From Streptacidiphilus albus JL83 (GTDB lineage: Bacteria; Actinomycetota; Actinomycetes; Streptomycetales; Streptomycetaceae): a stretch of DNA of 64,000 nucleotides. This document shows positions 25,619 through 62,781 of this stretch, in pieces (positions within the stretch are counted from its first letter, which is position 1; the number at the start of each line of letters is the position of its first letter). The notes under the pieces were generated by a model. That model ran no database searches and was not told the origin of the DNA. It saw only the letters and a program-made list of their open reading frames with translations. A program made the position numbers and the translations under genes. Location: NCBI RefSeq assembly GCF_000744705.1, contig NZ_JQML01000001.1:7512017-7576016 (forward strand), read 5' to 3'.

Positions 25619-26685
25619 GAGGTGTACTGCCCCACCAGTCGCGCCGAACCGGAGTGCGGCGAGTACGGGTCGATCGCGTTCGAGGGCCGGTACTCCAGGT
25701 CCACCCGGGTGCCGAGGCCCAGCTCGGTGGCGAACTCGACGAACACGTCGAGTGCCAGGTGGTCCTCCAGCGCTATGCCCGTCGAGTCGAACACCGTCAG
25801 CCGGCCGCGGGCATCGGCGACCGAGGCCGGGTCGGCCACCAACTGGGCGAGCGAGGGGCCGAGCTGATCGTGGGTGAGCCGCTGGCACTCGCCCTCGCGC
25901 AGCGCCTGCAGCGGGTGGTCCGGGCAGACCAGGGCGCGCTCCAGCAGGCTCCTGGGCAGTTCGGTCTTGCCGACCAGGTCGGCGCCGATGGCGTTGACGT
26001 GCAGGTGCTCCCGCACGTCGGTGTCCTGGAACACCGGACCCCGGCCGACCTCGATCGAGGTCGCGGTGGTGATGACGTCCGCCTGCCGGGCGATCTCCTC
26101 CGGGGTGGTGGCGCGGACGTCGAGGCCGAGGAAGGCGACCCGCTCGGCGAAGCTCGCCAGGTGCGCGGGGTCGGTGTCCCAGGCGAGCACCCGCTCCACC
26201 GGGAGGGTGAGGCTGAGCGCGTGCAGCTGGGTCACCGCCTGGGCGCCGGTGCCGATCATGCCGACGGTGCGGCTGTCGGGGTGCGCCAGGGCGCGGCTCG
26301 CCAGCGCGGACACCGCGCCGGTGCGGATCGCGGTGAGGACGATGCCGTCGCAGAGCACCGACAGGCAGCCGGTGATGTCGTCGTAGCGGGCGACCGTGCC
26401 GACGATGGTGGGCAGGCCGAAGCGGTCGGGGTTGGCCGGGCTGTACGCGACCGTCTTGATCGTGGTGCTGTCGCCGCCCACGCGGTGCGGCATCCATTCG
26501 ATGATCCCGGGCACCGGGTCGGGGCGCTCGAAGCCGTCCCGCAGCGGGGAGAGCTGGACGGTGCCGCGGTGGACCGCGGTGAAGCCCTCGGAAAGGCGCT
26601 CGATCATGCGGCGCATGAGGGCGTCGCGACCCACCTGCCCGATGATCCGGGCGATGTCGTCCTGCGCGATCAGTAGTGTGTTCAT
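25615..26685 (-). CDS. Ornithine/lysine cyclodeaminase family enzyme
   Basis: 356 aa, the usual length for the ornithine cyclodeaminase/mu-crystallin family. Visible motifs: IKTV with the substrate lysine, the NAD-binding loop IGTGAQA, and [15 protein letters not shown] with the catalytic aspartate. Members convert ornithine to proline or lysine to pipecolate with loss of ammonia; others (SbnB, VioB-like) act in diaminopropionate synthesis. No SbnA-type partner is seen in the window. The stop overlaps the GTG of the NRPS that starts with imino-acid-like A domains, so supply of pipecolate or proline is the favoured inference. The ATG has GAGGGGGAA upstream. It follows a 2-oxoglutarate oxygenase gene, 60 bp away. 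Confidence 0.88.
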
Positions 26686-38300: not shown

Positions 38301-41300
38301 CCAGCCCGTCAGCACCTGGTGCCGCTCGGCCGCCGTCAGGATCTCCAGCTGCCCGATCGGTCGGGTCGGTTCGGCGACGGCCGCGGTGAGGAGCAGCACC
38401 AGCCTGCGCCCGATCAGCTCCACCGTCTCCCGGTCGTACAGGTCGGCGGCGTACTCGAAGGCCGCGGCCATGCCGTCGGCGGCGCCGTCCGCGGTGCGCC
38501 GTTCCCGTAGCGAGAGCAGCAGGTCGAACTTGGAAGTGCTGCCGTCGACCGTCACCAGCTCCGAGGCCAGGCCGGGCAGCCCGATCTCGCCCGCGCCCTG
38601 GTTCTGGAGCACCAGCATCACCTGGAAGAGCGGGTGGCGGGCCAGCGAGCGGGCCGGGTTGACGGCCTCGACCACCTGCTCGAAGGGCACCTCCTGGTGG
38701 GCGAAGGCCGCGAGGTCGGTCTGCCGCACCCGGGCCACCAGCTCGGCGAAGGAGGGGTCGCCCGAGACGTCCGAACGCAGCGTCAGCGAGTTGACGAAGA
38801 AGCCGACCAGCTCCTCCAGGGCCTCGTCGGTGCGCCCCGCCGTCACCGTGCCGAGGGGGATGTCCGTACCGGCGCCGAGCCGGGACAGCAGCGCCGCGAA
38901 GCCCGCCTGGAGCACCATGAACGTGGTCGCGTGCTGCTCCCGGGCCAGGTCGAGCAGCGCCGAGTGGACCGGGGCGGGCAGCTCGAACTCGACCACCCCG
39001 CCCGCGAAACTCGCCACCGCCGGCCGCGAACGGTCGGCCGGCAGCTCCAACTCCTCCGGCAGTCCGGCCAACGCCCCACGCCAGTAGTCCAGTTGCCGGG
39101 CGGCCCGGCTGCCCTCCAGGGTGCTCTCGCCGAGCGAGTCGCGCTGCCAGAGGGTGTAGTCGGCGTACTGCACCGGCAGCGGCCGGTACTCCGGCGCCCG
39201 GCCGTCGCAACGGGCCGCGTAGGCCCGGGCCAGGTCGCGGCCGAGCGGCCCGTCGGACCAGCCGTCGGTGGCGATGTGGTGGAACGCGAGGAACAGGATC
39301 CGCTCGTCCGGGGCCAGTTCGAAGAGGGTGGTGCGGATCGGGAGGTCGGTGGCCAGGTCGAAGGGGCGGGAGCCCTCGGCGCGCAGCGCCTCGTCCAGGG
39401 TGTCCTCGGTGACCGGGACGACCGGCAGTGCGAGCCGGGCCAGGTCGGCGCCGAGCACCAGCTGCACCGGTTCGCCGTCGACCTCGGGGAAGACCGTCCG
39501 CAGGCTCTCGTGCCGGGCCAGGACATCGCCCAGGGCCGCCCGCAGCGCGGAGACGTCCAGGTCGCCGGAGAGCCGCAGGCCCCAGGAGAGGTTGTAGGTC
39601 GCGGAGGGGCCTTCCAGTCGGTCCAGGAACCAGAGTCGGCGCTGGGCGAAGGAGAGGGGGAGGCGGTCGGGGCGTCGGGCGGGCAGCAGTGGTGTGCCGA
39701 GCTCACCGGCGTGGCGCAGTTTCTCGGCCAGGCCTGCCACGGTCGGGGCCTCGAACAGCATCTGGATGGAGGCCTCGACGCCGAGTACCGTGCGGACCCG
39801 GCTGACCAGTCGGGTGGCCAGCAGGGAGTGGCCGCCCAGGGCGAAGAAGTCGTCGTCGAGGCCGACCCGTTCGGTGCCGAGCATTTCGGCGAAGACGGTG
39901 CACAGGATCTCCTCGCGGGCGTCGCGCGGGGGCCGGTAGCCGGTCGTGGCGGTGAACTCCGCCTTGGGCAGTGCCCGTACGTCCAGTTTTCCGTTGGGGG
40001 TCAGTGGCAGGGCCGGCAGGACCACGAACGCGCCGGGGACCATGTACTCGGGCAGCCGCGCGCCCAACCGGGCGCGGACGTCGGCCAGTTCCTGTTCGCC
40101 CCAGTCGGCGCCGGGGGTCGGTACGACGTAGGCCGCCAGGCGCTTCTCGCCTCCGGGCACCGCCAGGGCCAGCACGGCGCACTGGGCCACCCGGGCGTCG
40201 GCGGCCAGGGCCGTCTCGATCTCGCCCAGCTCGATCCGGAAGCCGCGGATCTTGACCTGGGCGTCGGCCCGGCCGACGAAGTCGAGTTCGCCGTTGGGGG
40301 TCCACCGGACCAGGTCGCCGGTGCGGTACATCCGCGAACCCGGCGCCCCGAAGGCGTTCGCCACGAACCGCTCGGCCGTCAGATCCGGGCGACCGTTGTA
40401 GCCGCGGGCCAGACCCGCACCGGCCAGGTAGATCTCGCCGGTGACCCCGGGCGGCACCGGACGCAGCCAGGCATCGAGGACGTAGGCCTGCATGTTGTCC
40501 ATCGCCCGGCCCACCGGGACGGGCCCGGGGGCGAACCCCTCGCCCTTGCGCATCAGCTTGTGCGTCGCGAAGAGGGTCGTCTCCGTCGCGCCGTAGGTGG
40601 TGCGCACATGGGTGTTCGGGCAGTGGTCCAGCACCCGCTGCACCGCGACCGGCGAGATCACGTCACCGCCGGTCAACACCTCCTGCACCGTCGCGAAGAT
40701 CTCCGGCGCCTCCTCCGCCACCACCCGGAACAGACCGGCCGTCAGATCCAGCCCGGTGACCTGGCCCTCCACCAACAGTCGGCGAAGGGTGCTCACCTCA
40801 AGATTGCCCTCCGGCGCCACCACCGTGGTGCCACCGTTCAACAGCGGCACCCAGATCGCGTAGGTCGAGGGATCGAAGGCATACGGCGCCGCCATCAGCA
40901 CCCGCCGATGCGCACCCCCCGCGAACATCCGGTCCATCGCCAGCTCGACCACATCCCGGTGCGTGACCGCCACGCCCTTCGGCAGTCCGGTCGAACCCGA
41001 GGTGTACATCACATACGCCAACTGCTGCGGCTCACTGCGCACTTCCACCGCAGCCGAGGACACCCCCGCCAACGCGGCCTCGTCGTCCACCGTCAGCACC
41101 ACCGCGCACGCCGGCACCTCGCCGGCCGCCTTCGCCCGGTCCACCAGCAGCACCCGCGCCCCGGCCGCGTCCACGATCCACTGCCGACGCTCCGGCGGGT
41201 ACCCGTTGTGCAACGGCACGTACACGCCACCGGCCTTCACGATCGCCAGTGTCGCGACCACGACCTCGACCGTGCGGTCCATCAACACCGCCACCGGGGT

Positions 41301-44300
41301 CTCCGGCCCCACCCCCAGCTCCAGCAGCCGACGCGCCAACCGATTGGAGCGCGCGTCCAACTCCGCGTACGTCAACGCACGCTCGTCAGCGCCGCCGCAG
41401 ACCGCCGGCGCATCGGGCGCACCCGCCACCTGTACCGCGAACAACTCCTGCAGCGAGGAGCCCAGCTGCGGCACCACCACGGCGGTGCTGTTCCACTCGC
41501 TCAGCACCCGGTCCCGCTCGGCGCCCCCGAGGATCTCCAGCAGTCCGATCGGTCGGGTCGGTTCGGCGACGGCCGCGGTGAGGAGCAGCACCAGCCTGCG
41601 CCCGATCAGCTCCACCGTCTCCCGGTCGTACAGGTCGGCGGCGAACTCGATCGCGCCCTTGATGCCCGCAGCGGCTCCGGTTTCGTCCGTCCTGAGGCCG
41701 AACTGGAAGTCCAGGTCGAACTTGGCCGTCCCCGTCCCCGGCGCCACCACCGCGGCCGACCGCACGCCCGGCAGCTCCACCAGCGGACCGCCGGCCTCCT
41801 GCACCGCGAAGGCCACCTGGAAGAGCGGGTGGCGGGCCAGCGAGCGGGCCGGGTTGACGGCCTCGACCACCTGCTCGAAGGGCAGGTCCTGGCGGGCGAA
41901 GGCCGCGAGGTCGGCCTGCCGCACCCGGGCCACCAGCTCGCTGAACGAGGGGTCGCCCGAGACGTCGGACCGCAGCACCAGGGTGTTGACGAAGAAGCCG
42001 ACCAGCTCCGCCAAGGCCTCGTCGGTGCGCCCCGCCGTCACCGTGCCGAGGGGGATGTCCGTACCGGCGCCGAGCCGGGACAGCAGCGCGGCCAGACCGG
42101 CCTGCAGCACCATCAGCATCGAGGCGTGCTGCCCACGGGCCAGCTCCTGCAGCGCCGAGTGGACCGGGGCCGGCAGCTCGAACTCGACCAACCCGCCCGC
42201 GTAACTCGCCACCGCCGGACGGGGGCGGTCCGTCCTGAGCTCCAACTCCTCTGGCAGACCGGCCAGTTCCTCCTGCCAGAAGGTCAACTGCCGCTCCGAG
42301 AGCTGCTCCGCTCCCTCGCGCTGCCACAGCGCGTAGTCGGCGTACTGCACCGGCAGCGGCTGGTACTCCGGCGCGACGCCCGCACGACGGGCCGCGTAGG
42401 CCCGGGCGAGGTCGCGGCCGAGCGGTCCGTCGGACCAGCCGTCGGTGGCGATGTGGTGGAACGCCAGCGCCAACACCCATTGGTCCGGGGCCAGTTCGAA
42501 GAGGGTGGTGCGGATCGGGAGGTCGGTGGCCAGGTCGAAGGGGTGGGAGCCCTCGGCGCGCAGCGCCTCGTCCAGGGTGTCCTCGGTGACCGGGACGACC
42601 GGCAGTGCGAGCCGGGCCAGGTCGGCGCCGAGCACCAGCTGCACCGGTTCGCCGTCCACCTCGGGGAAGACCGTCCGCAGGCTCTCGTGCCGGGCCAGGA
42701 CATCGCCCAGGGCCGCCCGCAGCGCGGAGACATCGAGGTCACCCGAGAGCCGGACCGCGAGCGACAGGTTGTAGGTCGCGGAGGGGCCTTCCAGTCGGTC
42801 CAGGAACCAGAGTCGGCGCTGGGCGAAGGAGAGCGGGAGGTGGTTGGGGCGTCGGGCGGGCAGCAGTGGTGTGCCGAGCTCACCGGCGTGGCGCAGTTTC
42901 TCGGCCAGGCCTGCGACGGTCGGGGCCTCGAACAGCATCTGGATGGAGGCCTCGACGCCGAGTACCGTGCGGATCCGGCTGACCAGTCGGGTGGCCAGCA
43001 GGGAGTGGCCGCCCAGGGCGAAGAAGTCGTCGTCGAGGCCGACCCGTTCGGTGCCGAGCATTTCGGCGAAGACGGTGCACAGGATCTCCTCGCGGGCGTC
43101 GCGCGGGGGCCGGTAGCCGGTCGTGGCGGTGAACTCCGCCTTGGGCAGTGCCCGTGCGTCCAGTTTTCCGTTGGGGGTCAGTGGCAGGGCCGGCAGGACC
43201 ACGAACGCGCCGGGGACCATGTACTCGGGCAGTCGCGCGCCCAACTTGGCGCGGACGTCGGCCAGTTCCTGTTCGCCCCAGTCGGCGCCGGGGGTCGGTA
43301 CGACGTAGGCCGCCAGGCGCTTCTCGCCTCCGGGCACCGCCAGGGCCAGTACCGCGCACTGGGCCACCCGGGCGTCGGCGGCCAGGGCCGTCTCGATCTC
43401 GCCCAGTTCGATCCGGAAGCCGCGGATCTTGACCTGGGCGTCGGCCCGGCCGACGAAGTCGAGTTCGCCGTTGGGGGTCCAGCGGACCAGGTCGCCGGTG
43501 CGGTACATCCGCGAACCCGGCGCCCCGAAGGCGTTCGCCACGAACCGCTCGGCGGTGAGGTCGGCCCGGCCCTGGTAGCCGCGGGCCAGACCCGCGCCGG
43601 CCAGGTAGAGCTCGCCGGACACGCCCACCGGCACCGGGCGCAACCACGCGTCCAGAATGTACATCTGCATGTTGTCCAGCGGCCGTCCCACCGGAATGGT
43701 GCTGCTGAACCGCTCGTCGCGGGACACCATGCGCTGGGTCGCGAAGAGCGTGGTCTCGGTCGGGCCGTACAGGGTGCGGACATTGGTGCCGGGGCAGTGG
43801 TCGAGGACGCGCTGGACGGCGACGGGGGAGATGACGTCGCCGCCGGTGAGGACCTCCCGGACGGTGGCGAAGACCTCGGGGGCCTCTTCGGCGACGACCC
43901 GGAAGAGGCCTGCGGTGAGGTCGAGTCCGGTGACCCGTCCGTCGAGGAGGAGCCGGCGCAGGGTGGCCACTTCGAGGTTGCCCTCGGGGGCGACGACGGT
44001 GGTGCCGCCGTTGAGGAGGGGCACCCAGATGGCGTAGGTCGAGGGGTCGAAGGCGTACGGCGCGGCCATCAGGACGCGCTGGTGGGCGCTGCCGGCGAAC
44101 ATCCGGTCCATGGCGAGTTCGACGACGTCGCGGTGGGTGACGGCGACGCCCTTGGGCAGGCCGGTGGAACCGGAGGTGTACATCACGTAGGCGAGCTGCT
44201 GGGGTTCGCTGTGGATGTGGACGGCGGCGGGGGAGACGCCGTCCAGGAGGGCGTCGTCGTCGACGGTGAGGACGGTGGGGCCGGTGGGGATGGGGCCGGT

Positions 44301-46034
44301 GGCCTTGGCGCGGTCGACGAGGAGGACGGGGGCGGCTGCGGTGTCGGTGATCCACTGGCGGCGCTCGGGCGGGTAGCCGTTGTGCAGGGGGACGTAGACG
44401 CCGCCGGCCTTGACGATGGCGAGGGTGGCGACGACGACCTCGACGGTGCGCTCCATCAGCACGGCGACGGGCGTCTCGGGGCCGACGCCGAGTTCGACCA
44501 GGCGCCGCGCCAGTCGGTTGGAGCGGGCGTCGAGCTGGGCGTAGGTCAGTTCCCGCTCCTCGGCGCCGCCGCAGACGGCGATCGCGTCGGGGGTCTTCGC
44601 GGCCTGCACGGCGAAGAGCTCCTGCAGGCTGGACGCCACCTGCGACACCGCCACCGCGCTGTCGTTCCACGTCTCCAGCAGCTGGTGCCGCTCGGCCTCC
44701 GCCAGGATCTCGACACCGGACACCGGCGTCGCCGGATCCTCGGCCAGCGCGCCCAGGAAGCGCACCAGCCGGTCGGCCAGGGTCTGCACCGTCCCCCGGT
44801 CGTACAGGTCCCCGGCGAACTCGATCATTCCCTCGATGCCGGCGGCGGCGCCGGTGTCGTCCTTCGTCAGGCCGAACTGGAAGTCCAGGTCGAACTTGGC
44901 CATCCCGGTGGCCGGCAGCGCCACCGGGGTGGCGCGCACGCCCGCGAGGTCCAGCGCCGGGCCACCGGTCTCGTGGACGGCGAAGGCCACCTGGAAGAGC
45001 GGGTGCCGGGCCAGCGAGCGGGCCGGGTTGAGCGCCTCCACCACCTGCTCGAACGGCACGTCCTGGTGCTCGAACGCGGCCAGGTCCGTCTGCCGCACCC
45101 GCGCCACCAGCTCGGCGAAGGTCGGGTCGCCGGAGACGTCCGAGCGCAGCACCAGGGTGTTGACGAAGAAGCCGACCAGGTCCTCCAAGGCCTCGTCGGT
45201 GCGTCCGGCCGCGACGGTGCCGAGGGGGATGTCGCTGCCGCCGCCGAGGCGGGACAGCAGTGCGGCGAGACCCGCCTGGAGCACCATCAGCATCGTCGCG
45301 TTGGTCGCCTGGGCGACGGCGGCCAGGCCCCGGTGCGCCCGGGCGTCCAGCCGGAACGGCACGGCGCCGCCGGTGTAGCTGGCCACCGCGGGGCGGGAGC
45401 GGTCGGACGGCAGCTCCAGCTCCTCCGGCAGACCGGTCAGCGCGCCGCGCCAGTAGTCGAGTTGCCGGGCGGCGAGGCTCCCCGGGTCGCTGCTCCCGCC
45501 CAGCAACTCGCGCTGCCACTCGGCGTAGTCGCGGTACTGGACCGGCAGCGGCTCGAACACCGGGGCCAGGCCCCGGGTGCGGGCCGCGTAGGCGAGGGAG
45601 AGGTCGCGTCCGAGCGGTCCGTCGGACCAGCCGTCGGTGGCGATGTGGTGGAAGACCAGGGAGAGGACCCACTCGTCGGCGGCCGGCCGGAACAGGGTGG
45701 CGCGCAGCGGCAGGTCCGCCGTCAGGTCGAACGGGCGGGAGCCCGCGGCCCGCAGCGCCTCCTCCAGCGCGTCCTCGGCGACCGGGACGACCTGCAGCTC
45801 GACCCCGGACCGCTCGGCGCCGAGCACCAGCTGCACCGGCTCGCCGTCGACCTCGGGGAACACCGTCCGCAGGCTCTCGTGCCGCTCGACCACGTCGCCC
45901 AGCGCGGCGCCCAGCGCCGCCACGTCCAGCACCCCCGACAGTCGCACCGCAAGAGACAGGTTGTAGGTCGCGGACGGACCCTCCAACCGGTCCAGGAACC
46001 ACAACCGCCGCTGAGCGAAGGACAGGGAAACCAC
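29379..46034 (-). CDS. Five-module NRPS, (C-A-T)x5-TE
   Basis: About 5551 aa. Carrier serines near residues 1011, 2070, 3128, 4203 and 5262; TE about 5310-5551 with GWSLGG serine near 5391. Each module is C-A-T with no epimerisation or methylation domain. C motifs are HHIATDG (three times), HHITTDG and HHIVCDG, all intact and of the L-to-L type. Codes read by eye, modules 1 to 5: DPYDLGLLFK, DPYDLGTLFK, DVFSVAIVYK, DAQFFAHVIK (proline-like), DVFSACIVYK. Module 2 has YGATETT in place of YGPTETT. Because it opens with a C domain it needs an upstream donor; the two-module NRPS at 20549-25618 fits, giving a seven-residue chain released by this TE. I chose the GTG at 46034 (TTGAGGAG upstream), which begins directly at the C domain; a TTG at 46121 is the longest alternative. 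Confidence 0.95.
39240..40430 (-). repeat. About 1.2-kb near-identical block, module 2 to 3 boundary copy
   Basis: This block is nearly identical to 42417-43607 at an offset of exactly 3177 bases (1059 codons). It covers the A-domain C-terminus, the carrier and the first half of the next C domain. A short patch around 39552-39590 is more diverged. It is either a recent module duplication or the result of conversion. Confidence 0.8.
42417..43607 (-). repeat. About 1.2-kb near-identical block, module 1 to 2 boundary copy
   Basis: Partner of 39240-40430. Repeats of this length and identity could cause misassembly from short reads, so the module count deserves confirmation. Confidence 0.8.
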
Positions 46035-46164: not shown

Positions 46165-46992
46165 TCAGCGGGCGCGCCACTGCGGAGCGCGCTTCTCGGC
46201 GAAGGCGAGCGGGCCCTCGACCGCGTCGGAGCTGCGCAGACGCAGCTCCTCCTGCGGGTAGTGCGCGGCGAACGCCTGCTCCAGCGGCAGCGCGGCGGAC
46301 ATCGCGGCGGCCTCCTTGACGGCCCTGACCGAGAGCGGCGCGCACCGCAGCACGTCGGCCACCCAGCCCTCCACGCAGCCGTCCAACTGCTCGGCCGGCA
46401 CCACCTCGTTGACCAGGCCGAGGTCGAAGGCGCGCCGCGCGTCCAGCGGCCGCCCGGTCAGCAGATGACCCATGGCCGTCCGGGTCGGCAGCTGCCGGGT
46501 CAGCCGGAACACCCCGCCCGCCCCCGCCATCAGGCCGAGCTTCGCCTCCGGCAGGGCGAAGACCGCGTCCTCGGCGGCGACGACGATGTCACAGGCCAGG
46601 GCGAGCTCGAACCCGCCGCCCATGGCGTATCCCCGCACCTTGGCGACGACCGGTTTCGTCAGCCCGAACCGCTCCGTCAGCCGTGGCCAGCCCGGTTTCC
46701 CGCGGCTGCCGAAGCTGGACGTGCCGGCGGTGCCGCCGCGGAGCCGGGCGGCGAGCTCCTTGAGGTCCTGGCCGACGCTGAAGGCCCGGGTGCCCGACCC
46801 CGCCAGCACCGCGACCCACAGGTCGTCGTCGGCCTCGAAGTCGTCCCAGATCTCGGCGAGTTCCTCGTGCATCCGCAGGTCCATCGCATTGAGCACCTCG
46901 GGCCGGTCGAGGGTGATCCGGGCCAGGTGGCCCTCCTTCTGGTAGCGGACCCGGGAGTGCCGCGAACTCCCCTGCTCCACTGCGGCGGTCAC
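46165..46992 (-). CDS. dpgD: Enoyl-CoA hydratase/isomerase family protein, DpgD-like
   Basis: 275 aa crotonase fold: oxyanion-hole stretch [27 protein letters not shown], then [14 protein letters not shown] and [21 protein letters not shown]. In glycopeptide producers DpgB and DpgD assist DpgA in forming 3,5-dihydroxyphenylacetyl-CoA from malonyl-CoA by dehydration and aromatisation. The GTG start at 46992 overlaps the antiporter stop as GTGA. Here it is parted from dpgABC by an aminotransferase and an antiporter gene. It is closer to DpgD than DpgB in its full [11 protein letters not shown] motif and length. A 130-bp gap follows before the five-module NRPS and may hold an extra promoter, though I see no clear -35/-10 pair. 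Confidence 0.85.
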
Positions 46993-48415: not shown

Positions 48416-49729
48416 TCAGGCCGTGCGGGCCTGGTGCGCGCCGATGTCGCGGAGGAAGGCAGCCAGCCGGGCAGCGCCCTCGTCGATGCCCTCGGGGTCG
48501 AGGTAGCTGCACGACAGCCGCAGCTCCCGGTCGCCGCCGGGGCCGCGGTAGAACTGGGACATCGGCGTCCAGAGCACGCCGTAGCGGGAGGCGGACACCT
48601 CCAGCAGCGCCTCGTCGACGGTCACCGGGAGGCGCATCCGTACGAAGAAGCCCCCGCTCGGCCGGTTCCAGCTGACGCCCTGCGGCGCCCGGCCGTCCGG
48701 GCACAGGTGGCGCTCCAGCGCCTCCAGCAGCAGGGTGAGGTTGCCCTGGTAGAAGGCGCCGCGCTCGCGCGCCAGTTCGGCGAACGAGCCGCCGTGCTCC
48801 AGCAGCATCCCGCCGATGACGGCCTGGCAGAGGGGCGACGTGTTGACGGTCACCATGCTCTTGAGCGCGGCCAACTCGTCCGCCAGCAGCCGGATCCGGC
48901 CGTCCGCGGTGCGGACCGGCTGGTCGGCGACGACGTAGCCGACCCGGGCCCCGGGGAAGCAGAGCTTCGCGAAGGTCCCGATCTGGACGACCCGGTCGCC
49001 GCCGTCCATCGCCTTGAGCGCGGGCGGGTGCCCGGACGCCACGGACTTGGTGAACCCGTAGGCGTTGTCCTCCAGCAGCAGGAAGTCCTCGCGCTCGGCG
49101 GTCCCCAGCAGCCGCCGGCGGGACGCCCGGTCCATCTCGGTGCCGGACGGGTTGGCGTAGTCGGGGGCCACGTACATGGCCCGCACCCGCCGGCCCCGCG
49201 CCGCCAGCCGGGCGCAGACCGCGTCGAGGGCGTCGAGGTCGGGCCCGTTGTCGGTGTCCGGCACCGCGACCACCTCGATGTCCAGCAACCGGGCGGCGCC
49301 GGTGATCCCGACGAAGCAGGGTTCCGCCACCACCAGCACGTCGGCGGCGTCGCGGAACAGCGCGCGCAGCGTCAGCAGCATGGCCTCCTGGGCCCCGACG
49401 GTGATCACGACGGCCTCCGGCGGCACGTCGACACCGTGGTCGGTGCGCAGGGCCGCGGCCACCAGGTCGTTGATCAGACCGCGGGCCGGGCCGTACTCGT
49501 ACAGCAGGCGGCGGGCGCCGTGCAGGTCGAGGCCGCGGGTGCGGCGCAGGTGCTCCACGAAGACGTCGACGCTCCGGGTGGCGTCGGTGTCCAGCAGGTC
49601 CGCCAGGTGGGGCGCCCCGGGGGCGAACGAGATCGCGTCCGGGAAGCGCGACATGACCTCGTTGAGGAAGCCGATGGAGCCGAGCAGCGGGTCCTGGAGC
49701 GAGTCGTGGAGGGAGCCGGGGGCTAGCAC
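48416..49729 (-). CDS. PLP-dependent HpgT-type aminotransferase, probably for Dpg
   Basis: 437 aa, fold-type I aminotransferase. The PLP lysine lies in [18 protein letters not shown]; other landmarks are [20 protein letters not shown] and LLEDNAYG. It resembles HpgT, which in glycopeptide pathways converts 4-hydroxyphenylglyoxylate to L-Hpg and 3,5-dihydroxyphenylglyoxylate to L-Dpg. Its GTG start at 49729 overlaps the stop of dpgC, the enzyme that makes 3,5-dihydroxyphenylglyoxylate, so a Dpg-specific role is inferred. A paralogue lies beside hmo at 57617-58945. Known glycopeptide clusters usually carry one shared HpgT, so two is notable. Confidence 0.88.
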
Positions 49730-51069
49730 GGCGCGGGCTCCTCACGGGAGGAGAAGCGCCCTGCCTTGGTCACGACGTCGTCCGCGTACAGGCGCTGGGC
49801 CTGCACCAGCGCGAACTCCGCGAGGTAGCGGCGCAGTCCTTCGCGCGGCTCGTCGGCCAGGTTGAGCATCCGGCGGTTGGCCACCACCGCCGGACTGTCC
49901 AGTGAGCGGACGGCCTCCTCCACCGCCGCGTCGAGCTCGTCGGCCGGCACCACCAGGTCGCACACCAGGGACGCCTCGGGGTCGGTGGCCGCGATCCGCC
50001 GCCCGCCCAGGATCACCCTCCGCGACAGCCGCGGCCCGGCCAGCCGGGGCAGCCGCAGATTGCCCAGGCCAGGGACGATGCCCTCCTGCGCGGCCGGCAG
50101 GCTGAAGAACGCGTCGTCGGCGCTGATCACCTGGTCGAAGACGAGCAGCAGCTGCATGCCGCCGCCGATGGCGAACGAGTCCACCGCCGCGCACCAGGGC
50201 TTCTGCACCGTGCGGTGCGGGTACGCGTCGGCGGCGGGGCCGGTCAGGATTCCGTGCATCAGCTTGCTGATGAGACCGAGCTCCCGGCGCAGCAGGAAGT
50301 CCACGAAGGAGATCCCGCCGGAGTGCAGCTCGCGCAGGTTGATCCCGGCGCTGAAGACCCGTCGCCCCCGGTAGCGCGGGTGGGTCATCACCCCGCCGCG
50401 GAGGACGCCGACGCGGGCCCGGTCGTCCAGCAGGACCAGGTCGACGGCCGTCTCCAGGTCGTCGACCAGCCGGTTGTCCTCGGCGTTCAGGCAGTGCTGG
50501 TTGTTGATCGTCAAATGCGCGGCGCCGTCGCGCAGTTCGACGAGGACCGAGCCCAGGTCGAGCCGGTCCTCGCGGCCGAACGCGTCCTGCAGGTCCAGGG
50601 CCCGGGAGGTCGGTCGGAGCATCGAGTCCATCAGATGCCCGCCGGCGTCGGGGGAGGCCAGCAGACCGCGGAAGAAGATGCCCTGGTCGATCTCCAGGCC
50701 CTCCTTCTCCGCCTGCGGCCGGGCCTGCTCAACGGCCATCAGCTCCGGGCCGGGGACCAGCCCCGGGAAGCGCTCGGCAGCGGCGTGGGCGAGCCCGTCC
50801 AGGCGCAGTGGGAGCCGGCGGCCGTCGGTGAGGACGTCGTAGACCTGCTCGGCGTGGTGGTGCATCAGCGTGTTGCGCGCCCGGCGGCAGGACTCGACGG
50901 CCTCGGCCGCGAAGTCCCGCTGCCGCGCGTCGCGCGCGTCCGGCTCGGGCAGCGCCGCGATCGCCTGCCGTGCCAGCGCCACGTACCCGGCCAGGGCCTG
51001 GGCGTCCTCCTCCAGCACGCCGGTGACGGCCGGCAGGGGCTCGGTCCGGGGGACCGGTGGCACGGTCAC
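49723..51069 (-). CDS. dpgC: 3,5-dihydroxyphenylacetyl-CoA 1,2-dioxygenase, DpgC
   Basis: 448 aa, the usual DpgC length: an N-terminal helical region of about 180 residues followed by a crotonase core (GRRVFSAGINLRELHSGGISF, AIGGGMQLLLVFDQVI, LPAAQEGIVPG). DpgC is a cofactor-independent oxygenase that turns 3,5-dihydroxyphenylacetyl-CoA and O2 into 3,5-dihydroxyphenylglyoxylate, the keto acid precursor of Dpg. The GTG start at 51069 overlaps the preceding stop as GTGA; a GTG two codons in is possible. The HpgT-type gene follows with a 7-base overlap. Confidence 0.93.
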   Translation of the reverse strand: MTVPPVPRTEPLPAVTGVLEEDAQALAGYVALARQAIAALPEPDARDARQRDFAAEAVESCRRARNTLMHHHAEQVYDVLTDGRRLPLRLDGLAHAAAERFPGLVPGPELMAVEQARPQAEKEGLEIDQGIFFRGLLASPDAGGHLMDSMLRPTSRALDLQDAFGREDRLDLGSVLVELRDGAAHLTINNQHCLNAEDNRLVDDLETAVDLVLLDDRARVGVLRGGVMTHPRYRGRRVFSAGINLRELHSGGISFVDFLLRRELGLISKLMHGILTGPAADAYPHRTVQKPWCAAVDSFAIGGGMQLLLVFDQVISADDAFFSLPAAQEGIVPGLGNLRLPRLAGPRLSRRVILGGRRIAATDPEASLVCDLVVPADELDAAVEEAVRSLDSPAVVANRRMLNLADEPREGLRRYLAEFALVQAQRLYADDVVTKAGRFSSREEPAPC

Positions 51070-51551
51070 CCCTCCAGTCCGGCGGCCGCGCGGTGGCGCA
51101 GGGAGCGGTCGCAGGCGGCCAGGTGGGTGCCGATGGCGTCCTCGTAGCTGGTCGTCATCGCCTCCAGGACCAGCCGTCGGCAGACGGCCAGCTCGCCGCC
51201 CAGGGACTGCCCCACCTCGCCGGGCACGGCCTCGGCGCGCGCCGGGTCGTCGCTGATCTCGTCGACCAGTCCGAGCGCGTGCGCGTGCTCCACCGCCAGC
51301 GCGTCGCCGCGCAGCAGGAGCCGGCGGGCCTGCGCGGAACCGACCTGGTGGGCCAGCCGGTACAGGGTCATGCCCGGCCACGGCAGGCCGTTGTGGTCCC
51401 GCAGCACCATCCGCAGCCCGGTGCCGGCGATGCGGTAGTCCGCCGCCAGGAAGAGGTCCAGGGCGGCGCCGGAGCACACGCCGTCGGCGGCGACCACGGT
51501 CAGCGCGCCCAGGCGCTCCACCCGGCGCACGGTGCGCTCCCAGCGGGTCAC
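51066..51551 (-). CDS. dpgB: DpgB-like enoyl-CoA hydratase, C-terminal part (frame differs from N-terminal part)
   Basis: 161 aa from the GTG at 51551. It carries the core of a DpgB-like crotonase: WERTVRRVERLGALTVV, DGVCSGAALDLFLAADYRIA, WPGMTLYRLAHQ and LGLVDEISDDP. The strand-forming N-terminal segment expected before WER is found in the other frame at 51548-51778. In this frame the protein continues upstream without a stop (PGIREV before TRWER), which fits a longer original gene. From 51778 to 51066 there are 713 bases, one short of a multiple of three, so one missing base would restore a 237-aa DpgB. Either a sequencing error in the G/C run near 51560, a true mutation, or two genes coupled through the GTGA overlap. 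Confidence 0.8.
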   Translation of the reverse strand: MTRWERTVRRVERLGALTVVAADGVCSGAALDLFLAADYRIAGTGLRMVLRDHNGLPWPGMTLYRLAHQVGSAQARRLLLRGDALAVEHAHALGLVDEISDDPARAEAVPGEVGQSLGGELAVCRRLVLEAMTTSYEDAIGTHLAACDRSLRHRAAAGLEG

Positions 51552-51778
51552 CTCGCGGATCCCCGGCCCACCGGCCGGTTCGAGCCGGGCCCGGAGGCCG
51601 ACAGGCGCAGCACCAGGGCCGGTGTGTGCGGCGCGTCCTCGACCCGGTCGCAGCCGTCGTTGATCAGCGCGACCAGCTCGGCCGGCGGTGCGGCGGTGTC
51701 CAGTTCGACCACCACCGGCGCCTCGCCGTCCAGTACCGCTCCGGAGAATCCGCTGCCCGAGTTCTGCGTGTGTGTCAT
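51548..51778 (-). CDS. DpgB-like N-terminal part
   Basis: 76 aa from an ATG with TGAGGAAG upstream; an ATG at 51796 overlapping the dpgA stop is also possible. The last recognisable DpgB-like residues are PALVLRLSASG; after that the frame drifts into a tail (RPVGRGSAR) and stops at 51548-51550, inside the GTGA shared with the next frame. On its own this is only the first strands of a crotonase fold and would not be an enzyme. It most likely belongs to one gene with 51066-51551. Confidence 0.6.
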   Translation of the reverse strand: MTHTQNSGSGFSGAVLDGEAPVVVELDTAAPPAELVALINDGCDRVEDAPHTPALVLRLSASGPGSNRPVGRGSAR

Positions 51779-51789
51779 CACGGTCTTCC

Positions 51790-52857
51790 TCACCATCGCA
51801 CTAGTGCCGTTTCGATCGTCGAACCGGGGCCCATCGTCATCAGGACCCCGTAGTCACCCGGTCGGGTGACTCCCTCTTCCAGGAGCCGCTGGTACGAGAA
51901 CAGGAACGAGCCGCTCGACAGGTTCCCGTAGTCCCGCAGCACACCGGTGGTGTGGCGCACGTCGTGCGCCGTCAGTCCCAGGTTGACCCGGACCGAGTCG
52001 ATGACCTTCCGCCCGCCGGAGTGCACCAGCCAGTGGGCGATGTCCGAGCGCCGCAGCCCGGTGCCCTCCAGCAGCCTGGAGACCACCTCCTCGGCGTGCG
52101 CCCCGACCACGTAGGGCACGTCCTGGTCCAGGTAGAAGCTGAACTTGCCCTGGTCGTCGTCCCAGTCGTAGCGCATGGCCTCGATCGCGTCGGGCACCAG
52201 CGTGCTGGCGGCCCGCAGCAGGAGCGGACCGGCCGGCCCGCCCGCCGGGGCGCTCCCGCCGGTGCGGACGCTGATCGCCGCGGAGCCGTCGCCGAACAGG
52301 CTGTTGACGACGGCGGTGCGCATGGTGCGGTCGAAGACGTAGGCGGACGAGCAGGACTCGATGCACACCATCACCGCGAGCTGCCCGGGGTGGGCGGCGG
52401 ACCAGCCGGCGACCGCCGCGAAGGCGTTCAGGCCGGCGTTGCAGCCCATCCCGACCACGTCGAGGCGCGAGGTGGTCGGGGAGAGCCCGAGCTCCTTGAT
52501 CACCCGGGCGCTGAAGCCCGGTGTCATCAGCCCGGTCGAGGTGACGCAGCACAGGTAGCGCACGTCCGCCAGGCTCGCCCCCTCGTTGTCGAGGCAGGCC
52601 CGCACCGCGCGGGAGCCCATCTCGATGCCGGTCTCCCGGTGCTTCTGCAGCAGTTGGCCCTGGCTCTCCAACTGCCGGGTGCCGTCCGGCGCCTGTGGCG
52701 GCAGGACCAGGTGGCGGGTCTTGATCCCGCTGTTGAGGAACAGCGAGCTGATCCTCGGGTCCTCGACGCCGAAGACGTCGAGGACGTCCTGCTGGCTGTA
52801 CGAGTGGGGTGGGACAGCGGTGCCGACGGAGGTGATCCTCGGCTGCGCTTCGGTCAT
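51790..52857 (-). CDS. dpgA: Type III polyketide synthase, DpgA
   Basis: 355 aa of the chalcone/stilbene synthase fold. The catalytic triad is visible: Cys139 in VVGMGCNAGLNAF, His279 in HSGGRKVID and Asn312 in DYGNLSSGS. DpgA condenses four malonyl-CoA units to 3,5-dihydroxyphenylacetyl-CoA with help from DpgB and DpgD. It heads a set dpgA-dpgB-dpgC-aminotransferase read in the minus direction, 56 bp after the P450 gene. The substantial 3-isopropyl-like or acyl starter pockets of other type III PKS cannot be judged by eye, but the neighbours make DpgA the clear call. Confidence 0.93.
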   Translation of the reverse strand: MTEAQPRITSVGTAVPPHSYSQQDVLDVFGVEDPRISSLFLNSGIKTRHLVLPPQAPDGTRQLESQGQLLQKHRETGIEMGSRAVRACLDNEGASLADVRYLCCVTSTGLMTPGFSARVIKELGLSPTTSRLDVVGMGCNAGLNAFAAVAGWSAAHPGQLAVMVCIESCSSAYVFDRTMRTAVVNSLFGDGSAAISVRTGGSAPAGGPAGPLLLRAASTLVPDAIEAMRYDWDDDQGKFSFYLDQDVPYVVGAHAEEVVSRLLEGTGLRRSDIAHWLVHSGGRKVIDSVRVNLGLTAHDVRHTTGVLRDYGNLSSGSFLFSYQRLLEEGVTRPGDYGVLMTMGPGSTIETALVRW

Positions 52858-57616: not shown

Positions 57617-58945
57617 TCACGGCCCTGCGCCGAGGCGGTCCGCGACCAGCGCCGCCAGTCGGTCCAGGCCGAGGTCGATCTGGACCGGGGTCACACTGCT
57701 GATCGAGAGCCGGAGCTGGTGCTCGCCGCCGGGGCCGTCGTAGAAGTGCCGCATGGGCGTCCAGAGCACGCCGTGGCTCCGGGCCGAGTACTCCAGCAGC
57801 TGGTCGTCCACGGCGAAGGGCAGCGTCAGGACCACGAAGAACCCGCCCACCGGGGCGTTCCAGCGCACCGCGGCGGCCGGCGGACCGCCGGCCGGGAACC
57901 TGCGGGCCAGCCCGTCGAGGAGCTGCCGCAGATTGCGCGCGTACCGCTGCTGCTCCTGGACCGTGGCGGCGGCCAGACTGCACTCCTGCTGGACGAGCCT
58001 GCCGCCGACCACGGCCTGGGCGATCGGCGAGGTGTTCACCGTCAGCATGCTCTTGATCTTCGCGAGCTGGTCCGCCAGCAGACCCGGCTCGCCGCTGCGG
58101 TCGGCCACCCGCTGGTCGGCCACCACGTAGCCCACCCGGGCGCCCGGCAGCACCGTCTTGGCGAACGAGCCCAGGTAGACGACCCGGCGGTGCCGGTCCA
58201 GGGCCTTGAGGGTGGGGACCCGGTCCCGGCCGCTGCGGAACAGGCCGTAGGGGTTGTCCTCCAGCAGCAGCAGGTCCTCGCGGTGGGCGAGGTCCAGCAG
58301 CCGCTGGCGCACCGCGCGGTCCATGCTCAGGCCGGTGGGGTTGGCGAAGTCCGGCATGACGTAGAGGGCGCGCGGGCGCAGTCCCTCGCGGCGGGCCCGC
58401 CGCAGCACGGCCAGGAGGTCGTCGAGGTCCACCCCGTCGTCCCCGCTCGCGACCGGCAGCACCGGCAGGTCCACCAGCCGCGCCGCGCCGGTGAGGCCGA
58501 CATAGGTCGGCGCGACCGCGAGCACGACGTCCTCGGGGCCGCGGCGCAGCGCCCGCAGCACCAGGTAGATGGCCTCCTGGCAGCCCACGGTGACCACGAC
58601 GGCCTCGGGATCGACCTCGATGCCCTCGTCGACGGCGAGGTTGCGGGCCACCAGGTGGTGCACGACGCCCTTGGTCCGCCCGTACTGGAAGAGCGTGCGG
58701 CGGACCTGCGCCGGCGACATCCCGCGCTCGTCGGCCAGGTGGTCGGCGAAGGCGCGCAGCGCGCGGTGGATGTCGTCGGTGTCGAAGAACTCCTCGGCCG
58801 GGCGGCCCGCCGCGAACGGGACGGCCTGCGGGTAGCGGTCGGCGATCTCGTTCAGCAGGTTCATCGAGGACAGCGCCGGGTCCTCCAGCGAGCCGTGCAG
58901 GCTCGCGGTGTCGAGGTCGGCGGCGAGCCGGGTGTCAGTGGCCAC
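57617..58945 (-). CDS. hpgT: 4-hydroxyphenylglycine aminotransferase, HpgT
   Basis: 442 aa PLP enzyme, fold type I. PLP lysine in [18 protein letters not shown]; other landmarks FQYGRTKGV, YVMPDFANPTG and LLEDNPYG. HpgT transfers an amino group to 4-hydroxyphenylglyoxylate to give L-Hpg. The GTG start at 58945 overlaps the end of hmo by 11 bases, so Hmo's product would be its natural substrate. The other HpgT-type gene at 48416-49729 sits beside dpgC. Both share a distinctive SLxDP start and C-terminal GVLWTPM stretch, so they are diverged copies of one ancestor. Confidence 0.92.
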   Translation of the reverse strand: MATDTRLAADLDTASLHGSLEDPALSSMNLLNEIADRYPQAVPFAAGRPAEEFFDTDDIHRALRAFADHLADERGMSPAQVRRTLFQYGRTKGVVHHLVARNLAVDEGIEVDPEAVVVTVGCQEAIYLVLRALRRGPEDVVLAVAPTYVGLTGAARLVDLPVLPVASGDDGVDLDDLLAVLRRARREGLRPRALYVMPDFANPTGLSMDRAVRQRLLDLAHREDLLLLEDNPYGLFRSGRDRVPTLKALDRHRRVVYLGSFAKTVLPGARVGYVVADQRVADRSGEPGLLADQLAKIKSMLTVNTSPIAQAVVGGRLVQQECSLAAATVQEQQRYARNLRQLLDGLARRFPAGGPPAAAVRWNAPVGGFFVVLTLPFAVDDQLLEYSARSHGVLWTPMRHFYDGPGGEHQLRLSISSVTPVQIDLGLDRLAALVADRLGAGP

Positions 58946-60082
58946 GTCGGCCCGCCCCTCGGCGGTCGACGCCGCGGGGACCGGTGATCGTGCGCAGCCG
59001 GCCGGCCTCGCGCGGGTCCGCGCAGCCGGCCAGGGTCAGGCAGTCGGCGAACTCGCGGTGCAGCAGCGACAGCACCTGCTCCACCCCGGCCGCGCCGTCC
59101 AGCGCCAGACCCCACAGCACCGGTCGGCCGACCAGCACGCCGGAGGCGCCCAGGGCGAGCGCCCGGAGGATGTCGGTGCCGCTGCGCACGCCGCTGTCCA
59201 GCAGCACCTCGCAGCCCTCCGGCACGGCCTCGACCACCTCGGGCAGCACGGTCGCGCTCGCCGGAGCGCCGTCCAGCTGCCGCCCGCCGTGGTTGGACAC
59301 CACCACCGCCTCGGCTCCGCAGGCGGCGGCGCGGGCCGCGTCCGCGCCGCCGAGGACGCCCTTGACGATCAGCGGCAGCGAGGTCTGTCCGCGCAGCCAT
59401 TCGAGGTCGCTCCAGCTGACCGCCGGGTCGAACACCGCCCGGCTGTGGTCGGCGATCGCCGAGCCGCCGGGCACCCGGCCGTGGGCCTGGGAGGGCGAAC
59501 CGCCCAGGTTCGCGGCGCGGACACCGCTCGGCAGGGTGAACTCGTTGCGCAGGTCCCGCAGTCGGCGGCCCATGATGGGCACGTCCACGGTGACCACCAG
59601 GGCCCGGCAGCCGCAGCTCTCGGCGCGCCGGACCAGGTCGAGCAGCTCGCCCCGGTCGGCGAGCCAGTACAGCTGGAACCAGAGCGCGGCTCCGGTGCGC
59701 GCCACCTCCTCCAGGGCCGTGCTGCTGAGCATGCCGACGGTGAACGGCACGTCCGCCGCGCGGGCGGCGGCAGCCGTGGCCGACTCACCGCCGCTGTGCA
59801 GCAGTTGCTGGTAGGCCATCGGCGCGATGGCGACCGGCAGCGCGGCGTCGCTCGCCACCAGCCGGGTACGGGTGCTGGGCGTCCCCACCCCGCGCAGGAC
59901 GCCGGGCACCACGGCGATGTCGTCCAGCGCCGCGCGGTTGGCCGCCAGCGTCCGTTCGCCGCCGCTCCCGCCCTGGACGAAGTCCCAGACGTCGCCCGGG
60001 ACCAGGGCCGGGCCAGGCGCTCCACGTCGGCCAGGCACACCGGCGGCGCGGGGGCCGGCCGGCGGAGGTCGGTGACGCTCAT
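58935..60082 (-). CDS. hmo: 4-hydroxymandelate oxidase, Hmo (apparent frameshift near 60005)
   Basis: FMN-dependent alpha-hydroxy-acid oxidase. The main frame (58935-60038) holds VPGDVWDFVQGG, ANRAALDDI, the FMN stretch LWFQLYWLADRG, LIVKGVLGG, VVSNHGGRQLDG with the catalytic histidine, and LLDSGVRSGTDILRALALGA. The expected N-terminus, CLADVERLAR, is encoded in another frame starting at an ATG that overlaps the hmaS stop (TGATG) at 60082. The total of 1148 bases is one short of a multiple of three; one extra G where CCGG follows CTGGC would join both parts into 382 aa. The frame also opens at a GTG at 60038 without a ribosome site, so a shortened enzyme is possible. Hmo oxidises 4-hydroxymandelate to 4-hydroxyphenylglyoxylate. 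Confidence 0.85.
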
Positions 60083-61167
60083 CAGCGCGCCCCCGCGACG
60101 GCGCGCTGCGACTCGACGGCCTCGTAGAGCGCCTTGATGTTCCCGGAGCCGAAGGTCCGGGCCCCGAGGCGCTCGATCAGCTCCAGGAAGAGCGTGCCGC
60201 GGCTGTGCACCGACCTGGTGAAGATCTGGAAGAGCTGCCCGTCGTGGTCCTGGTCCATCAGGATGTTGTGGGCGCGCAGCTCCGCCACGGAGTGCCGCCG
60301 GGCCGTCATCCGCTCGCCCAGCGCGTCGTAGTAGGCGCCGGGGGAGCGCAGGAACTCCACGCCGGCCGACGCCATGCCGCCGACCGAGCGCACGATGTCG
60401 CCGGTGTTCCAGGCGATGTGCTGGACGCCGGGGCCGTCGTGCTTGCGCAGGAAGTCGTCGATCTGGCCGGGGTCGTGGGACGGGTCCGGCTCGATCAGGG
60501 TGAGCGTCACCTCGCCGGACCGGCTCTGCACCACCTTGGAGATCATCGACTGCCTGCCGACCAGGATCTGCTCGGCGAAGACCATCCGGAACCCGAGGAC
60601 CCGCTGGTAGAACGCGACGGTCGGTTCGAGGGTGCCGGCCTCCAGGCAGACCGCGAAGTGGTCCACCGCGGTCAGCCCGGTGTCCCGGGCCGGCGCCCGG
60701 TGGGGCACCGGACGCAGGCCGGGCAGAGCCGTCGGCGCGATGCCGCGGGCCCGCTGGACGAAGGTGTGCGCGACGTCGCCGAAGCCCACGATCGACGCGG
60801 TGACCACGCCGTCGCGGGTGGCCGGCGGCGCCACCGGGGTCGCGCCGAGCCCGACCGCGGCCTCGAAGGCGCCGGCGGCGTCGGGCACCCGCAGCCCGAT
60901 GTCGGCCACGCCGTCGCCGTGCCGCTCGACGTAGCGTGCGGCCGGGTGGTCCGCGGCCAGGCCCTGGGTGAGCACCACCCGGATCCGGTCCCGGCCGAGC
61001 GCGACCGAGCGGGCCCCCACCCGCCCGGCCTCGGCCTCGTTGTCGGCCTCGACGACGAGGCCGTAGCTGTCGAGGAGCCAGTCCGTGGTCGCCCGGAAGT
61101 CCTCGACGTACAGTTCGACGTGGTCCACGCCCATGTCGTCGGGCGAATCCCCGTGTGCCGTGGTCAT
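60082..61167 (-). CDS. hmaS: 4-hydroxymandelate synthase, HmaS
   Basis: 361 aa, two vicinal-oxygen-chelate halves. Iron ligands: H170 (VDHFAVCLE), H250 (GVQHIAWNT) and E329 (LFLELIERLGA). HmaS and 4-hydroxyphenylpyruvate dioxygenase are homologues; the C-terminal RGTLFLELIERLGAR, where dioxygenases usually have an F-rich FFEIIQR form, and the adjacent hmo and hpgT genes favour HmaS. It converts 4-hydroxyphenylpyruvate and O2 to 4-hydroxymandelate, the first step to Hpg. Its stop overlaps the start of hmo. Confidence 0.93.
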   Translation of the reverse strand: MTTAHGDSPDDMGVDHVELYVEDFRATTDWLLDSYGLVVEADNEAEAGRVGARSVALGRDRIRVVLTQGLAADHPAARYVERHGDGVADIGLRVPDAAGAFEAAVGLGATPVAPPATRDGVVTASIVGFGDVAHTFVQRARGIAPTALPGLRPVPHRAPARDTGLTAVDHFAVCLEAGTLEPTVAFYQRVLGFRMVFAEQILVGRQSMISKVVQSRSGEVTLTLIEPDPSHDPGQIDDFLRKHDGPGVQHIAWNTGDIVRSVGGMASAGVEFLRSPGAYYDALGERMTARRHSVAELRAHNILMDQDHDGQLFQIFTRSVHSRGTLFLELIERLGARTFGSGNIKALYEAVESQRAVAGAR

Positions 61168-61225: not shown

Positions 61226-62746
61226 TCACTCGGCGGGGCGGGCCCAGCTCAGGCCGTCCGGGGAGGGCACCAGACCGCCGTCGAAGAGCGGGCGCTCGCT
61301 GTCGTACTCGCTGCCGAAGGCCGCCTTGGCCTGCATCTCCACGCTCTGGTCCATCAGGTCGCCGATGAGCTCGGACTTGTAGAGCGGCAGCGCGTCCTCG
61401 CCGCCGCTGGAGTTCACCGCGCCCACGCCCTGCTCCAGCGCCGACGCGGTCCGCTCGAACCGCTGCCGGGTGGAGTCGGCGTCGACGAACGCGGACTCCC
61501 CGGAGGAGACGCCGCCGACCAGTTCGACGAAGCACTGCAGGTCCGACTCGGAGGTCGCGGCGACCTTCTTCGCCTGCCAGTAGTACGAGTCCGCGTCCTT
61601 GTGGGTGTCGTAGAAGGCGACCAGGAACTCGTAGAAGACGCCGTACTCGCGCCGGTAGCGCTGCTCGAACTCGGTGAAGCAGACGTCCTCGTCGAGCTCG
61701 CCGGCCAGCACGCTGTTGATGGAGCGGGCCGCCAGCAGCGCGCTGTAGGTGGCCAGGTGGACGCCGGAGGAGAAGACCGGGTCGATGAAGCAGGCGGCGT
61801 CCCCGATCAGCACCATGCCGGGCCGCCAGAAGCTGGTGTTCAGGTACGAGTAGTCCTTGCGCACCCGCACCTCGCCGTAGACGCCCTCGGTGACGCGCGG
61901 CACGCCCTCGAGCATCTTGCCGATCCGCGGGGCCTTGGTGATCAGACGCTCCAGCGCCTGCACCGGATCCCCCTGGACGGCGGCGGCCGACTCCCGGCTC
62001 ACCACCGCGCCGACGCTGGTCAGGCCGGGTGCCAGCGGGATGTACCAGAACCACCCGTCGCTGAACGCCTCGCAGAAGATGTTGCCGCTGCGGGGCTCGG
62101 GCAGCCGCTCGCCGCCCTCGAAGTAGCCGAACAGGGCGACGTTCTGGAAGAACTCCGAGTACACCCGCTCGCCGCCGACGGCCTTGTTGATGCGGCTCCT
62201 GTTGCCGGAGGCGTCGACGACGAACTGCGCCCGTGCGATCCGGGCCGTCCCCTCGGCGTCGGTGTACTCCACGCCGTTGACCCGGTCGCCCTCCTCCAGG
62301 ACGCGGGTGACGGAGCACTCCTCCCGGACGTCCACGCCCAGCTTGCCCGCGTGCCGCAGCAGGATCTCGTCGAACTTCATCCGCTCGACCTGGTAGGCCC
62401 GCGACGTCGGCCCGGCCAGCCGGGGCGAGAGCGCGAACACGAAGGACCACGGCTCGGGGCTGCTGCCCCAGCGGAACGTGCCGCCCAGCTTGGGGGTGAA
62501 CCCCATGGCCTCGATCTCGTCCGCCACGCCGAGCAGGCCGCACACTCCGTGCACCGTGGCCGGCAGCAGCGACTCGCCGATCTGATAGCGGGGGAACCGC
62601 TCCTTCTCCAGCAGCAGCACCCGGTGGCCCTGTTTGGCCACCAGGCCCGCCAGGGCGGACCCGCCGGGGCCACCGCCTACCACCACAACGTCGAAGGTCT
62701 CCTCAACGGGCGTGCTCACGTCGTCCTGCTCCTGTCGCTCGGTCAT
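61226..62746 (-). CDS. Flavin-dependent halogenase, copy 1
   Basis: 506 aa. FAD-binding VVVVGGGPGGSALAG near 20-34, then FPRYQIGESLLPATVHG, the halogenase hallmark GWFWYIP at 231-237, and GDAACFIDPVFSSGVHLA. These match halogenases acting on phenolic residues or carrier-bound substrates in NRPS pathways (BhaA, ComH and PltA types) rather than free-tryptophan enzymes. Chlorination of Hpg or Dpg units is therefore likely. The ATG at 62746 was used; a GTG a few codons in, after CAGGAG, is an alternative. The gene upstream is a second, similar halogenase. FADH2 must come from a flavin reductase not identified here; the flavoprotein at 2180-3013 is one unproven candidate. Confidence 0.93.
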   Translation of the reverse strand: MTERQEQDDVSTPVEETFDVVVVGGGPGGSALAGLVAKQGHRVLLLEKERFPRYQIGESLLPATVHGVCGLLGVADEIEAMGFTPKLGGTFRWGSSPEPWSFVFALSPRLAGPTSRAYQVERMKFDEILLRHAGKLGVDVREECSVTRVLEEGDRVNGVEYTDAEGTARIARAQFVVDASGNRSRINKAVGGERVYSEFFQNVALFGYFEGGERLPEPRSGNIFCEAFSDGWFWYIPLAPGLTSVGAVVSRESAAAVQGDPVQALERLITKAPRIGKMLEGVPRVTEGVYGEVRVRKDYSYLNTSFWRPGMVLIGDAACFIDPVFSSGVHLATYSALLAARSINSVLAGELDEDVCFTEFEQRYRREYGVFYEFLVAFYDTHKDADSYYWQAKKVAATSESDLQCFVELVGGVSSGESAFVDADSTRQRFERTASALEQGVGAVNSSGGEDALPLYKSELIGDLMDQSVEMQAKAAFGSEYDSERPLFDGGLVPSPDGLSWARPAE

Positions 62747-62781
62747 CTCGGTCACTCTCGTTTGCGGGGTCCGGCGCCGTT

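Follow-up and report, generated by a model that had tools for sequence, protein, structure and literature searches.

Does the 4-hydroxymandelate oxidase gene of Streptacidiphilus albus JL83 lack a base in the organism, or only in its genome sequence? The gene, hmo, lies between hmaS and hpgT in the window (the whole stretch of DNA analysed, 64,000 nucleotides, positions 7,512,017–7,576,016 of a single 9,915,093-base contig), and cannot be read there in one frame from start to stop. In the living strain, HmaS would form 4-hydroxymandelate, Hmo would oxidise it to 4-hydroxyphenylglyoxylate, and HpgT would convert this into 4-hydroxyphenylglycine (Hpg) for the nonribosomal peptide synthetases (NRPSs), as in the known Hpg pathway.

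The reading frame of hmo lacks one base in the assembly

From its ATG at 60082 to its TGA at 58935, hmo comprised 1148 bases; with one more, the length would be divisible by three. The ATG frame encoded MSVTDLRRPAPAPPVCLADVERLAR, followed by sequence unlike the family and by a stop at 59369. The second frame, open from a GTG at 60038, encoded 367 amino acids, with a match to FMN_dh (PF01070) that began at residue 13 and covered profile positions 5 to 344 of 350 (E = 1.1e-120). In the assembly, the N-terminal helix and the FMN_dh barrel of the protein stand in different frames.

Comparison with the intact paralogue of the same genome (L002) joined the two parts. PVCLADVERLA of the window gene resembled PVCLDDVERLA of the paralogue, VPGDVWDFVQGG resembled VPADVWDFVQGG, and the spacing became equal after one base was added; across the break point the paralogue reads PVCLDDVERLAASRVPADVWDFVQGG. 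The DNA alignment of the window gene and four homologues showed a single one-base gap, after CTGGCC, and the codon position richest in G+C shifted phase near the break (120-base windows). Codon-position arithmetic placed the missing base, one only, in a G/C-only stretch (Table 1). In the first affected column, 46 of 82 aligned sequences had R and 28 had A; as both are common, homology does not fix the exact place of the base within the G/C run. Elsewhere hmo was without lesion, the second frame remaining open over 1101 bases. Both halves of hmo match one family with the correct spacing, which makes coincidence an implausible alternative; the frame break in the sequence record is confirmed.

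Most of what a sequence-only reading had proposed for this gene agreed with these results. The name hmo was borne out by the FMN_dh match and by the 4-hydroxymandelate oxidases found as best solved relatives; the frame break by the 1148-base length, the homology in two frames and the alignment gap; and the start coupled to hmaS by the ATGA that the hmo ATG shares with the hmaS stop. The restored length of 382 amino acids and the GTG at 60038 were both correct. The break itself had been put near 60005, a few bases from the interval obtained here.

Table 1. Features of the hmo region and of the intact cassettes of the same genome (window coordinates unless the genome is named).
Feature	Coordinates	Strand	Basis or remark
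hmo (4-hydroxymandelate oxidase), one base out of frame in the assembly	58935–60082	-	1148 bp; FMN_dh
Stretch with one base missing relative to homologues	60008–60013	-	Alignments; codon arithmetic
5' part of hmo, ATG frame, N-terminal helix (PVCLADVERLA)	60011–60082	-	Sequence comparison
Remainder of hmo, second frame, nearly complete FMN_dh domain	58935–60008	-	FMN_dh match
GTG able to open the 367-aa version	60036–60038	-	No ribosome-binding-like sequence upstream, by eye
hmaS, 4-hydroxymandelate synthase	60082–61167	-	Assigned by operon context; stop overlaps hmo ATG
hpgT, aminotransferase	57617–58945	-	Aminotran_1_2; name from context; overlaps hmo stop
Second aminotransferase, ECH-like gene, two small genes, type III polyketide synthase	48416–52857	-	Probable dihydroxyphenylglycine (Dpg) genes
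Another ECH-like gene	46165–46992		
NRPS, five adenylation domains, one open frame	29379–46034	-	Same cluster
Intact hmaS-hmo cassette (L003)	Genome, about 7503366–7505560	+	Hmo 64% identical to window copy
Intact hmaS-hmo cassette (L002), with hpgT	Genome, 7631423–7633656 (with hpgT, 7630108–7633656)	-	Hmo 74% identical to window copy

Relatives of Hmo and conservation of the frame

Eighty-two related loci were compared: the best 80 of 309 from the scan of named genomes, and two from other genomes of the genus. Two of the entries (L020 and L022) were one gene of S. anmyonensis NBRC 103185, so that 81 loci were distinct, and hmaS did not adjoin every one of them. All 82 read through in a single frame with the helix in frame; in 77 the match to the paralogue ran in one frame and began no later than residue 24, and in the remaining five the extension was in frame by reading. 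Solved 4-hydroxymandelate oxidases (PDB 5zzp, 6ai7, 5zzx and others) also have the helix in their chain sequences; they were the best solved relatives of the window Hmo and had in common with it the FMN_dh domain and the conserved motifs LYWL, GRRLRD and SNHGGRQLDG. Unlike in these enzymes of actinomycete Hpg pathways, the frame of the window gene, as assembled, is broken behind the N-terminal helix.

The closest relatives found were the Hmo proteins of L002 and of S. anmyonensis (L020 = L022), 73–76% identical to that of the window. Their genes belong to the same operon as in the window, with the order hmaS-hmo-hpgT common to all three; the hmo start overlaps or adjoins the hmaS stop, and both genes are unbroken. 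A phylogeny of 29 Hmo-like proteins, hand-chosen from 84, placed the window Hmo on a longer branch (0.22) as sister to a clade that groups L002 with S. anmyonensis and Streptomyces sp. H27-H1 (100/99); the L003 protein fell in a separate Streptomyces clade. No orthologue of the window hmo was found in 13 other genomes of the genus at E 1e-100, among the best 80 of 309 loci or in plasmid records, collections that may lack records very close to the genome of the window. In the open-access literature, no paper was found that joins hydroxymandelate oxidase with a frameshift, or Streptacidiphilus with hydroxyphenylglycine.

Selection on hmo

Downstream of the break, pN/pS of hmo was 0.44 against L002, 0.43 against L020 and 0.55 against L003. 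The corresponding values for hmaS were 0.62, 0.68 and 0.55, and those for hpgT were 0.48 against both L002 and L020. Between L002 and L020 the values were lower: 0.34 for hmo, 0.49 for hmaS and 0.31 for hpgT. The window hmo showed no rise of its own, because hmaS and hpgT rise alike over the L002–L020 values. An old pseudogene was rejected, as hmo had no further stops or frameshifts and its pN/pS did not exceed that of hmaS and hpgT; the pattern speaks against such an origin, and would be the same for a sequence error and for a very recent mutation.

The Hpg/Dpg cluster and the other hmo copies

The neighbouring hmaS product was classed in NCBIfam as 4-hydroxyphenylpyruvate dioxygenase, a related enzyme (TIGR01263, 342 bits, cut-off 277). 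The genes between 46165 and 52857 probably serve the supply of Dpg, as assigned from the known pathway; as these probable Dpg genes share the cluster with those for Hpg, they suggest a peptide containing both residues.

The same genome carries two further hmaS-hmo cassettes outside the window, both intact and about 65 and 59 kb from the window hmo, which gives three within about 130 kb: two in sister clades, and L003 in the separate Streptomyces clade. As two unbroken hmo genes exist elsewhere in the genome, the cell could have Hmo activity even if the window copy were inactive. This weakens the proposal of the sequence-only reading that Hpg supply may be impaired: even with a real deletion, loss of Hpg would not be the obvious outcome, to judge from the gene content. 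With three cassettes, loss of any single hmo may leave Hpg.

NRPS, P450 and MbtH-like genes were present near each cassette (the MbtH-like gene of the window was assigned by Pfam, the other two by look). Tandem FAD-dependent halogenase genes stood upstream of the window hmaS (61226–62755, assigned by Pfam, and 62782–64275, by likeness only), and another followed the L003 cassette (genome 7505624–7507132, Pfam). An ornithine cyclodeaminase-like gene was located at 25618–26685 of the window, and PALP and ATP-grasp genes beyond it (genome 7646724–7649032); these genes may supply diaminopropionate, by a likeness to SbnA/SbnB.

Other one-base deletions in the assembly

A 400-kb block of the same genome (4.4–4.8 Mb) was surveyed by homology, with the proteins of two reference genomes (G011 and G012). 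Two single-base deletions were detected, identical with both references (166 orthologues for G011, 183 for G012). One affected ispF (4467759–4468124), single copy in this genome, whose match ended at position 122 of the 155 of the profile, while those of all 13 other genomes of the genus spanned positions 2–154. The other lay in a gene for a conserved 100-aa protein (about 4558556–4558851). The ispF gene is regarded as essential. HMG-CoA reductase was not found in the genome, which makes it unlikely that the mevalonate pathway compensates for a loss of ispF. The ispF deletion is probably an assembly error in a gene held essential. Because single bases appear to be missing from the genome record, even within ispF, genes that look like pseudogenes in it should be checked.

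Over the 183 orthologues (58,545 amino acids), two deletions amount to a rate of about 11 per Mb of coding sequence, at which the 190 kb of coding sequence surrounding the window would be expected to contain about two. A third flag with the G012 reference (g58; three flagged vs. two with G011) was judged to be two adjacent genes. A wider 800-kb survey flagged four of 211 orthologues of the window's genome, the case added there being a gene that appears shorter in G012.

With G011 as the subject, 1/166 (judged adjacent genes) and 0/176 were flagged; with G012, 1/185 and 2/174, i.e. one true one-base deletion detected twice and one case judged to be adjacent genes. The affected gene of G012, also a Streptacidiphilus, encodes a 473-aa protein, aminotransferase-like by look (about 7470216–7471687), and is one base short relative to both relatives. 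Because G012 has such a lesion too, one-base lesions are not peculiar to the genome of the window.

A detector of frame switches based on codon usage was run over 620 kb of the genome. Across the 220 kb surrounding the window it found no breaks among 33 frame switches, and hmo itself was not flagged; its sensitivity was 140/300, with 0/18 for simulated breaks no more than 90 bases from a gene start. Four control blocks of 100 kb gave six candidates among 73 switches. On reading, none of these was a clear one-base lesion: they comprised leaders of low complexity, a linker rich in alanine (counted twice) and adjacent genes, plus an ambiguous one at 6021494.

Published long-read assemblies

The S. 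albus JL83T genome is described, in the excerpted part of its publication, as 9.91 Mb in one contig, from PacBio RS reads assembled with HGAP, and short-read correction is unmentioned in that part (PMC7601586). An independent draft of the same type strain (NBRC 100918T, BBPL00000000) was obtained by MiSeq and 454 GS FLX+ sequencing (PMC4290990). For the S. leeuwenhoekii C34 chromosome, sequenced by PacBio only, 2,934 inserted bases were reportedly needed on correction; the differences were mostly an omitted C or G in runs of at least three, and frameshifts resulted (PMC4487206). Likewise, three Streptomyces PacBio HGAP2 assemblies are reported to have 70, 295 and 335 sites differing from the Illumina-corrected sequences, the vast majority of the corrections being single-base insertions, in homopolymers (PMC6923854).

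The hmo break resembles these cases in the single missing G or C and the apparent frameshift, which there included biosynthetic genes. The published omissions were verified with Illumina data, whereas we infer the one in hmo. It probably shares the cause of the other single-base deletions of its genome.

Origin of the break

The break in hmo is best explained as a one-base omission in the assembly, most likely absent from the organism, with a probability that we put at roughly 0.8. A base would have been lost from the G/C-only stretch of a long-read assembly, and the living strain would produce a normal Hmo of 382 amino acids, translated from the ATG at 60082 by coupling to the hmaS stop. This explanation is favoured because a one-base deletion also affects ispF in this assembly, and because PacBio-only actinomycete assemblies are documented to omit G or C; the idea of a one-base sequence error, already part of the sequence-only reading, gains from the same two facts. 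The lack of a second lesion in hmo, its pN/pS no higher than that of hmaS, the unbroken frame of the 82 related loci and the deletion rate of the surveyed block also speak for it. Several observations were counted against it. The 220 kb around the window did not appear error-ridden to the detector, and a non-essential gene with paralogues would tolerate real loss. The pN/pS of the window hmo against L002 (0.44) exceeded that between L002 and L020 (0.34), with hmaS and hpgT rising likewise. The G012 lesion also counted, as did two published items: a rifR-like gene of S. leeuwenhoekii has three frameshifts, confirmed as real by Sanger sequencing (PMC4551226), and the pseudogene count of JL83T was not raised (366 vs. 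453 in S. anmyonensis, a MiSeq draft; PMC7601586).

The main rival is a real, recent one-base deletion that inactivated the window hmo; Hpg for the cluster would then come from either or both of the remaining Hmo enzymes in the genome. The two intact cassettes, whose Hmo proteins share 64% and 74% identity with that of the window, would make such a loss tolerable, and frameshifted genes of biosynthetic clusters can be real, as the rifR-like gene shows (PMC4551226). We nevertheless consider it unlikely, since a one-base omission is a known error of such assemblies, and one hits ispF here; hmo has no second lesion and a pN/pS not above its neighbours, though a very recent mutation would look alike. 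A fuller version, in which one of three Hpg clusters lost its Hmo and uses that of a neighbouring cluster, tying the peptide pathways together metabolically, seems slightly less likely still.

The deletion might also be real and the gene functional, if ribosomes ending hmaS or passing the ATG reinitiated at the GTG at 60038 and made a 367-aa Hmo with an altered N-terminus. That frame is open and keeps the FMN_dh match from profile position 5, so that the reliance on this GTG envisaged in the sequence-only reading is possible in principle, but unsupported: by reading, no Shine-Dalgarno-like sequence precedes the codon, and the conserved helix would be dropped. A stretch rich in Gly, Pro and Arg would make up the first 12 residues and replace a helix that the 82 related loci encode in frame and that the solved 4-hydroxymandelate oxidase chains contain, which makes this course very improbable. 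Programmed -1 ribosomal frameshifting, which would join both frames, has the direction of the frame change in its favour. It was rejected as having a negligible chance: no X-XXY-YYZ slippery heptamer was seen by eye at the break, RNA folding nearby was no better than in shuffled sequence (z 0.05, one 101-base stretch), and the 82 related loci need no shift.

If the break were taken as real, the Hpg/Dpg cluster would be wrongly written off, or hmo misannotated as a pseudogene. The finding itself is ordinary; its value lies in the ispF control, the warning on the assembly and the triple Hpg cassette.

Sequence context of the deletions

The three deletion sites of the window's genome (hmo, ispF and the gene for the 100-aa protein) were all in G/C-only stretches readable as palindromes of at least 8 bases. 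With n = 3, a link between palindromes and deletions is suggestive only; random sites were readable as such palindromes in 17.8% of cases at a length of at least 8 bases and in 6.2% at a length of at least 10.
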